In this document: positions 60,600 through 62,057 of the stretch, in pieces
Numbering within the stretch: the stretch's first letter is position 1
Layout of the letters: each line of letters starts with the position of its first letter
NCBI RefSeq assembly: GCF_000317515.1
Contig: NC_019738.1
Span: 6,226,001 to 6,290,000 of the forward strand
Source of the DNA: Allocoleopsis franciscana PCC 7113
GTDB taxonomy: Bacteria; Cyanobacteriota; Cyanobacteriia; Cyanobacteriales; Coleofasciculaceae
DNA: 64,000 nucleotides
Reading direction: 5' to 3'
Position numbers and translations under genes: made by a program
Notes under the pieces: generated by a model
Databases searched by the model: none
Told to the model about the DNA's origin: nothing
Seen by the model: only the letters and a program-made list of their open reading frames with translations

Positions 60600-61460
60600 T
60601 TAAGACGCGATCGCCAATTGTGGCAGATTTAAAGGTTCCGCAATCTGTCGTCCAACGGCGACGGCAACAGGTCGTAAACTCTCGACTAAATCCACCATAT
60701 CGTCCAAAGAAAGTGCCTGACGTGCATCGGAAACTGATTTTTCCGGTTCGGGGTGACATTCAATCATCAGTCCATCAGCTCCACAAGCCACAGCCGCTTT
60801 AGCCAGAGGGGCGACCAATTCCCGCTTGCCCACAGCATGAGAGGGGTCTACAATCACGGGCAGGTGAGTAAGCTGCTTGAGTGCTACGACGGCTCCTAAA
60901 TCCAGCACATTGCGAGTGAAGTTATCGAAACTGCGGATACCGCGTTCACACAATACAACTTGAGAGTTACCGTGGCTGAGAATGTATTCGGCTGCCATGA
61001 CAAATTCCTCAAGCGTTGCAGCTAACCCTCGCTTCAGCAGGACTGGCTTGTCGATTTGACCGAGTGCTTTGAGTAAATCAAAGTTTTGCATGTTGCGGCT
61101 ACCAACCTGAAGCATATCCCCATGGGGTGCAAGGGATTCGATTTGATCAATGGTCATGACCTCGGTGATTACCGGAAGATTGTAGCGCGATCGCACTTCT
61201 GACAATATCTCTAATCCTTCCACACCTAAGCCCTGAAACGAGTAGGGAGATGTCCGGGGTTTGAAAACACCACCCCGTAGCGCCTGAACGGGTGCGTGCT
61301 GAAGTTGTTGAGCAACGAGTTCCATTTGTCTGCGATTTTCAACGGCACATGGCCCCCCAATAATTACAAGTTCTCTTGCCCCGAAGGTGACGTTATCCGA
61401 GAGTTTGACAAGGGTGTTGTGGTTAGGATGAGATTGTGTAGCAAGTTTGGCATTCAACAT
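60600..61460 (-). CDS. aroF: 3-deoxy-7-phosphoheptulonate synthase (DAHP synthase)
   Basis: First enzyme of the shikimate pathway: joins phosphoenolpyruvate and erythrose 4-phosphate. 286 residues of the short AroF type (type I beta), without an N-terminal ferredoxin-like allosteric domain. Motifs: IIGGPCAVENRRQMELVA, RGGVFKPRTSPYSFQGLG, LLKRGLAATLEEFV, CERGIRSFDN, VDPSHAVGKRELV, DGLMIECHPEPEKS. Preceded by a leader of about 300 nt with two aromatic leader peptides and two terminators, so end-product control is probably by attenuation. Confidence 0.96.
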   Translation of the reverse strand: MLNAKLATQSHPNHNTLVKLSDNVTFGARELVIIGGPCAVENRRQMELVAQQLQHAPVQALRGGVFKPRTSPYSFQGLGVEGLEILSEVRSRYNLPVITEVMTIDQIESLAPHGDMLQVGSRNMQNFDLLKALGQIDKPVLLKRGLAATLEEFVMAAEYILSHGNSQVVLCERGIRSFDNFTRNVLDLGAVVALKQLTHLPVIVDPSHAVGKRELVAPLAKAAVACGADGLMIECHPEPEKSVSDARQALSLDDMVDLVESLRPVAVAVGRQIAEPLNLPQLAIAS

Positions 61461-61488
61461 GTGGTCGGATTCCTTTGTTAGATGGGTG

Positions 61489-61526
61489 AAAAATCAAAAA
61501 CCCGGTTCCTTTGCAGGTTCCGGGTT
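61489..61526 (-). promoter_or_regulatory. aroF attenuator terminator 2
   Basis: On the minus strand AACCCGG (61520-61526) pairs with CCGGGTT (61499-61505); inner CC/GG extends it, and TTTTTGATTTTT follows. It lies between leader peptide 2 and the aroF start. Confidence 0.82.
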
Positions 61527-61552
61527 GTCGTAGAAAGTTGGCGTGACTTTAC

Positions 61553-61618
61553 CTACCCGGAAGCGTATCGGGGCCAAAAATAAAAGCCGTAAAGCCAGCT
61601 ATTGAGGGAAAGGGTCAT
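61553..61618 (-). CDS. aroF leader peptide 2 (aromatic-rich)
   Basis: 21-codon ORF, ATG at 61618, TAG at 61553-61555. Core SWLYGFYFWPRY: seven of 21 residues are Trp, Tyr or Phe. Coding sequence contains TTTTATTTTTGG, identical to leader peptide 1. It ends 26 bp before hairpin terminator 2. Function as translated sensor is inferred from codon content and position. Confidence 0.7.
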   Translation of the reverse strand: MTLSLNSWLYGFYFWPRYASG

Positions 61619-61643
61619 GCTTGGATTTTGAGGTGTATTTACC

Positions 61644-61682
61644 TTAAAAAAATAATGGACCACAGCCTTTGTTCTGCGGTCC
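61644..61682 (-). promoter_or_regulatory. aroF attenuator terminator 1
   Basis: GGACCGCAG/CTGTGGTCC stem on the minus strand (9 bp with one G-U; plus-strand 61657-61665 and 61674-61682), then ATTATTTTTTT. It lies 26 bp downstream of leader peptide 1. Alternative pairing of CCGGUGGA with an upstream UUCACCGG could serve as anti-terminator (inference). Confidence 0.8.
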
Positions 61683-61710
61683 ACCGGGTCGGTTCCATGG
61701 GGAACTGTTT

Positions 61711-61767
61711 TCACCACCGGTGAACCTCCCTAAACCAAAAATAAAAGTAATGGCGGCTGCTGAACAT
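61711..61767 (-). CDS. aroF leader peptide 1 (aromatic-rich)
   Basis: 18-codon ORF, ATG at 61767, TGA at 61711-61713: MFSSRHYFYFWFREVHRW. Eight of 18 residues are aromatic, six of them consecutive (YFYFWF). No clear ribosome-binding site was seen. Placed before terminator 1. Confidence 0.7.
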   Translation of the reverse strand: MFSSRHYFYFWFREVHRW

Positions 61768-62057
61768 GGCTGTAGCGCTAGTGAGACTATTTGTTGAGTT
61801 CTGTAATGCGCCTACCCTAGCAAGCTTATCAGGACTTAGTCAATACCCGTGGGGAGTGAAATTGCCATCTCAACCACAAAATCCTGAATTCTAATTTTTT
61901 CCAAGGGGGCATCTAACCAAAAATCTATCTTTGCTAGGGGCAAGGCAACCCTAATATATCGGCTTAGGCACAATGAATGATTGATGATGCTGTGCCCCTA
62001 CTGCCTTGGTTGTGTCGTCATGCTTGCTACGGATATAACAGCGATCGCCACCTAGGT
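61768..62057. other. Probable promoter region of the aroF leader
   Basis: About 290 bases between the pentapeptide gene and leader peptide 1. No gene and no separate terminator for the pentapeptide gene was seen other than attenuator hairpin 1 downstream. Confidence 0.4.

Follow-up and report, generated by a model that had tools for sequence, protein, structure and literature searches.

Two leader-peptide attenuators in series are predicted upstream of a cyanobacterial DAHP synthase gene

What governs the transcription of a DAHP synthase gene whose leader carries two short reading frames, both crowded with codons for phenylalanine, tyrosine and tryptophan? The question is raised by aroF, on the minus strand of the window (the whole stretch of DNA analysed here, 64 kb in length), where sequence and comparison with relatives give the order promoter, ORF1, terminator 1, ORF2, terminator 2 and aroF. 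We propose that two ribosome-mediated transcription attenuators very probably follow one another in this leader, each of them sensing how far tRNA-Phe, tRNA-Tyr and tRNA-Trp are charged. All the parts by which an attenuator is recognized were found: an ORF with cognate codons, a terminator before the structural gene, an antiterminator exclusive with it, and an upstream promoter sequence. The two mini-ORFs had already been singled out in an initial annotation of this DNA, with the lengths and aromatic contents listed below, and they exceed chance: among 5000 dinucleotide shuffles of the 400-nt leader, none held two such ORFs and three held one, and these are the sole ORFs of their kind on both strands of the window. 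The aromatic-coding block said to be shared by the two frames is an exact match, TTTTATTTTTGG being identical in ORF1 and ORF2. DNA coding for FYFW occurs at 27 places in the genome, and a mini-ORF followed by a terminator is seen only at the two leader ORFs.

61711..61767, minus strand: leader ORF1, MFSSRHYFYFWFREVHRW and stop (ATG at 61767, stop at 61711); 18 aa, 8 of them Phe, Tyr or Trp; conserved in relatives
61732..61749, minus strand: putative sensing codons of ORF1, Tyr-Phe-Tyr-Phe-Trp-Phe; aromatic class kept, with Phe, Tyr and Trp interchanging
61553..61618, minus strand: leader ORF2, MTLSLNSWLYGFYFWPRYASG and stop (ATG at 61618, stop at 61553); 21 aa, 7 of them Phe, Tyr or Trp; conserved in relatives
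61574..61597, minus strand: putative sensing codons of ORF2, Trp-Leu-Tyr-Gly-Phe-Tyr-Phe-Trp

Elsewhere in the same genome (G000), an 11-codon frame, KAYTFYFWLFH, is identical at three loci (L143, L144 and L156) and is followed by nearly the same downstream sequence; it is a dispersed repeat unrelated to the leader.

Each mini-ORF had been described as followed by a hairpin and a T-run, and both hairpins are indeed more stable than shuffled sequence; against this, the fold energy of the whole leader is only modestly better than that of shuffles (z about -1.6). An alternative pairing had also been suggested before terminator 1. It exists and is longer than proposed, with 10 base pairs between GGUUCACCGG at the end of ORF1 and CCGGUGGACC, which extends into the 5' arm of terminator 1; but an equivalent second one, at ORF2, had been missed, in which UUCCGGGU, reaching into the ORF2 stop codon, pairs over 8 bp with ACCCGGAA.

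61646..61685, minus strand: intrinsic terminator 1; hairpin 61685-61654, about -19 kcal/mol, z -4.0, then a T-run
61489..61526, minus strand: intrinsic terminator 2; hairpin 61526-61499, about -15 to -17 kcal/mol, z -4.3, with the T-run ending at 61489
61717..61726, minus strand: antiterminator 1, 5' arm GGTTCACCGG, within the 3' end of ORF1; partner 61678-61687
61678..61687, minus strand: antiterminator 1, 3' arm CCGGTGGACC, overlapping the 5' arm of terminator 1
61555..61562, minus strand: antiterminator 2, 5' arm TTCCGGGT, extending into the ORF2 stop codon; partner 61518-61525
61518..61525, minus strand: antiterminator 2, 3' arm ACCCGGAA, wholly inside the 5' arm of terminator 2

The pairings were examined for covariation in alignments of 60 diverse sequences for module 1 and 53 for module 2, and tested against 500 shuffles and against slid controls. 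In the first alignment 93.8% of cells are paired for antiterminator 1 and 99.8% for terminator 1; in the second the values are 96.2% for antiterminator 2 and 93.3% for terminator 2. For all four helices the covariation score was matched by none of the 500 shuffles and lies well above every slid control. As kinship alone can beat shuffles without any structure, weight is put on the slid controls combined with two-sided changes, which occur at 7 of 11 pairs of antiterminator 1. Compensating arm pairs are found in the Microcoleus group (GTTCGCCCGG with CCGGGCGAAC), at locus L063 (GGTTCACTGGG with CCCAGTGAACC) and in family f45 (GGTTCACCGGAAGT with ACTTCCGGTGAACC). One strand therefore has two covarying partners, which is direct support for a two-state switch. 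The 5' arm of the antiterminator mostly starts 3-6 nt after the last codon of the aromatic run in ORF1, and 8-12 nt after it in ORF2, and its end mostly lies 2-6 nt short of the last base of the stop codon, a spacing that fits the two ribosome positions, stalled and terminating.

A transcript start upstream of ORF1 (61767) had been named as something that the attenuation reading depends on, and conserved promoter sequence lies there. Of 45 diverse loci, 37 carry the motif TTGAC-N17..19-TANNNT at the expected spot, about 75 nt upstream of ORF1 (shuffles give a mean of 0.16 and a maximum of 2). Transcription of the leader thus most likely begins shortly before ORF1, with a start expected near 61807 from the position of the promoter. 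The -10 element TAGGGT was not listed by a stricter promoter scan that asked for 9 of 12 positions.

61838..61843, minus strand: -35 element TTGACT, at a conserved position across diverse loci
61814..61819, minus strand: -10 element TAGGGT, 18 nt from the -35 element, at a conserved position across diverse loci

In the proposed mechanism, when aromatic amino acids are plentiful the ribosome would reach the stop codon of each ORF and cover the 5' arm of its antiterminator; with that arm covered, the terminator would form and RNA polymerase would halt. When any one of Phe, Tyr or Trp runs short, the ribosome would stall within the aromatic run and leave the downstream end of the ORF free, and this free end would allow the antiterminator to form and transcription to continue. 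Transcription of aroF would need both modules to open, and overall read-through should then approximate the read-through of one multiplied by that of the other; as the same codons occur in both, the pair is expected to make the off-state tighter and the response steeper, not to integrate two signals.

The two modules appear to differ in what an untranslated RNA would do. For module 1, a protecting strand 1 of the trp type is unsupported (the best upstream pairing reaches -5.0 kcal/mol, versus -6.1 kcal/mol in shuffles), which makes module 1 a three-strand switch, expected to let RNA polymerase pass when ORF1 goes untranslated. In module 2, the start region of ORF2 pairs with the spacer past its stop codon: across 56 loci the observed pairing energy was reached by none of 300 permutations of the partners, which co-vary, and no equivalent signal between start and spacer was seen in module 1. 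Because this helix crosses the antiterminator, it may mask the start codon of ORF2 and, when that ORF is not translated, tip the balance towards termination; it is possible that it gates the translation of ORF2.

61614..61620, minus strand: ORF2 start region GCATGAC, pairing with the spacer past the ORF2 stop; one mismatch in the copy of the window
61541..61547, minus strand: spacer element GTCACGC (consensus GTCATGC), partner of the ORF2 start region

How widely the leader is shared was assessed with a search of named genomes, which yielded 80 loci encoding close relatives of the enzyme (among them Symplocastrum, Coleofasciculus, Moorena, Microcoleus, Trichocoleus, Scytonema, Calothrix and many Nostoc), and with a phylum-wide search that added more distant ones; 99 distinct orthologous loci have enough upstream sequence. 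Absence of the mini-ORFs and hairpins from relatives would speak against attenuation, and the reverse is found: both modules are present in 97 of the 99 (95 by script; L101, whose ORF2 stop is displaced, and L106 on reading), they covary as described above, and the loci range from Nostocales to far more distant cyanobacterial families. The two remaining orthologues have a single module, L099 only module 1 and L103 only module 2. A covariance model of module 1 has exactly one match per genome in 142 of the 388 genomes of the class (16 families, 72 of 160 genera), and the gene that follows is this aroF wherever it is readable; the module 2 model also gives one match per genome. Forty further loci matched by module 1, mostly divergent, comprise 36 with both modules, three with module 1 only (L192, L197 and L213, all of family f45) and one relic; as they were picked by their module 1 match, they bear on module 2 and on the association with the enzyme, not on the frequency of module 1. 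That a few loci and family f45 keep one module implies that one suffices in some species. In the relic (L189, G030:C48:72535-74552) ORF1 and the antiterminator region are readable and aroF is decayed and internally deleted; no intact copy of this DAHP synthase isoenzyme was found in that genome.

Distances within the leader vary. Several Nostocales (L006, L007, L022, L079, L064 and others) have 260-350 nt between the ORF2 stop and aroF instead of about 100, and the extra length seems to stem from insertions past terminator 2; the two modules stand farther apart in L006, L013 and L082. The module 1 model (R1) also detects module 2 of the window (E 0.003) and, weakly, that of 4 of 34 other loci (E 0.08 to 0.8), and a common origin of the two modules is possible. 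No leader with an aromatic run was found at trpE, a trpE-like gene or pheA of the same genome, nor any comparable conserved leader at 24 further loci of other aroF types.

What the leader ORFs conserve is the class of codon. In the best five-codon window of ORF1, all five codons are aromatic (TTT, TTC, TAT, TAC or TGG) in 55 of 60 copies; the first codon position within the run is T in 294 of 300 cases, and the second and third positions vary as aromatic codons permit. Per 16 codons, ORF1 has 6.5 aromatic codons in frame versus 3.7 and 1.6 in the other frames, and ORF2 has 7.2 versus 3.1 and 2.7. Phe, Tyr and Trp are all present in 60 of 60 ORF1 copies and 52 of 53 ORF2 copies, and they exchange positions freely between loci (FYYWYFF, RFYFWFF, AFYFWWQ, SFYFYWF), a pattern predicted by codon-based sensing of any aromatic amino acid but not by a specific arrest peptide. 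Graded control by all three aromatic amino acids, as the initial annotation had suggested, fits the codons; with a ribosome stalled at the last aromatic codon of ORF1, however, the antiterminator arm would be partly covered, and some of the codons may therefore not sense effectively. Phe codons of the runs are nearly always TTT (128 versus 12 TTC in ORF1, 118 versus 11 in ORF2), while Tyr uses both of its codons; TTT may be favoured because it is decoded slowly or because a U-rich stretch has to stay unstructured. A Shine-Dalgarno sequence precedes ORF1 in 0 of 28 loci, ORF2 in 9 of 28 and aroF in 27 of 28. Translation of the leader ORFs without one is thus an assumption, for which the conservation at the codon level argues; the ilvBNC leader of C. 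glutamicum is a precedent, according to the title of a paper cited in PMC4046766.

Other explanations of such a leader have to be weighed against attenuation. The leader peptides might arrest the ribosome themselves, with the nascent chain as sensor of the free aromatic amino acid, in the way that TnaC senses tryptophan, and in close relatives FYFW and FYFWPR do look like motifs; we judge this very improbable, because in distant loci the runs (RFYFWFF, FYYWYFF, FYFWYWF, SFFSTYFFW, LFSFYFY, VYWF) keep the aromatic class and not the identity, length or register of the residues. The conserved peptide tails past the run, VHR and SG, are accounted for by the antiterminator arms of the RNA and change together with their RNA partner. 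Least probable of all is a metabolite-binding riboswitch or T-box in which the ORFs are accidental: a conserved structured RNA before a biosynthetic gene is what either would look like, yet the leader has no match in Rfam at the gathering cut-off or even at E 10, the alignments of 60 and 53 sequences contain no conserved aptamer-like core beyond the switch helices, and the conservation of aromatic codons is specific to one frame.

The remaining rivals accept the ORFs and change their role. That the mini-ORFs act on the translation of aroF, by reinitiation or by sequestering its ribosome-binding site, is slightly less probable still than peptide arrest, even though they precede a gene with a good Shine-Dalgarno sequence: T-runs follow the hairpins, which lie tens to hundreds of nucleotides away from the aroF start, the ORF2 stop and aroF are separated by anything from about 80 to 350 nt, and no conserved helix was seen over the aroF start. 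Rather more room, although we consider it unlikely, is left for a single module being the working sensor and the other a constitutive or vestigial terminator. Family f45 and L099, with module 1 only, and L103, with module 2 only, agree with this; against it, nearly all orthologous loci retain both modules, and both antiterminators covary, for which a fixed terminator would have no need. Two attenuators acting in series thus remain the reading that we prefer.

The gene behind the leader, annotated from the outset as a DAHP synthase, is confirmed as a type-I enzyme (PF00793 at E 6e-77; TIGR01361 above its cut-off). The eighth residue of its product aligns to residue 74 of the Thermotoga enzyme 1rzm, and the closest solved structure, aligned over nearly the whole length, is 1zco, the barrel-only enzyme of Pyrococcus. 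PF18152, the ferredoxin-like regulatory domain, is absent from the product and from 12 relatives. By contrast, the genome encodes a paralogous DAHP synthase about 21 kb away from the first aroF (L002 1474-2553, G000:C1:6308311); PF18152 is present in this paralogue (E 3e-17), and no leader ORF was found upstream of it. According to the literature on such structures, feedback inhibition by aromatic amino acids resides in the ferredoxin-like domain, and barrel-only DAHP synthases are not known to be inhibited. Since the leader-controlled enzyme lacks the allosteric domain of the paralogue, attenuation probably replaces feedback inhibition on this isoenzyme, and the pair suggests a division of labour in which one isoenzyme is feedback-inhibited and the other controlled by attenuation.

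60600..61460, minus strand: aroF, DAHP synthase of 286 aa, catalytic barrel only (PF00793); Shine-Dalgarno-like AAGGA at 61471-61475

How far does this arrangement resemble known systems? With trpL and pheL of E. coli it shares the run of cognate codons and the mutually exclusive antiterminator and terminator, but those are single, four-strand attenuators, whereas the cyanobacterial module 1 is without a conserved strand 1 and its untranslated RNA is predicted to read through. Tandem T-box and tandem riboswitch leaders place elements for the same signal in series before one operon; these sense by direct contact of RNA with ligand or tRNA, unlike the translating ribosome invoked here. In Corynebacterium glutamicum, aroF is subject to ribosome-mediated leader-peptide attenuation at aroR (Neshat et al. 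2014, as reviewed in PMC11802643), an attenuator predicted in PMC4046766. As described in the review, the aroR leader peptide contains Phe-Tyr-Phe and likewise controls a DAHP synthase gene, and the effect comes from Phe and not from Tyr, although both codons are present; compared by description, aroR is a single attenuator of another phylum with a Phe response, whereas the cyanobacterial leader has two modules, three aromatics and conserved Trp codons. A candidate Phe-coding short ORF with a terminator also precedes aroF in Acholeplasma (uORFC-13-1, PMC8632094), but it is a single module known from 24 sequences, of Acholeplasma and environmental origin only, with at least one Phe codon and no aromatic run. 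Two short ORFs and two attenuators do stand in series in the mgtCBR leader of Salmonella (PMC3641672), where they respond to two signals (ATP and proline-charged tRNA) before a magnesium transporter and virulence operon, while the cyanobacterial pair apparently reads the same signal before a biosynthetic gene.

The initial annotation knew of no description of two stacked attenuators on one biosynthetic gene of a cyanobacterium. This holds in part: tandem attenuators are known from mgtCBR (PMC3641672) and aroF attenuation from Corynebacterium (PMC11802643), but in the open-access literature we found no description of this element, nor of two same-signal attenuators on one gene. A 2016 survey reported no reliable data on attenuation in cyanobacteria (PMC4833913), and nothing later on the subject was found in the open-access literature. 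New here is the combination of an apparently shared signal, a tandem arrangement and a three-strand first module, in a phylum without a documented mechanism of this kind; aroF attenuation and tandem attenuators each have precedents. The fullest version of our account is that tandem attenuators for the same signal, whose ORFs are each translated with no Shine-Dalgarno sequence, form a multiplicative AND gate on an allosterically unregulated cyanobacterial DAHP synthase; that the gate predates the divergence of many families and is the first well-supported case of ribosome-mediated attenuation in the phylum; and that without translation module 1 opens and module 2 closes. To this whole, drawn from sequence comparison, we give an even chance.

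If the attenuation reading is true, transcription and translation in cyanobacteria would be coupled closely enough for the position of the ribosome to set termination. It suggests that the means of feedback may be exchanged between isoenzymes of one cell, with an allosteric domain on one and two RNA attenuators in a row on the other. Loci that naturally keep a single module provide a comparison that makes the added value of a second attenuator for the same signal directly testable, and the element may offer a handle for engineering the production of aromatic compounds in cyanobacteria.
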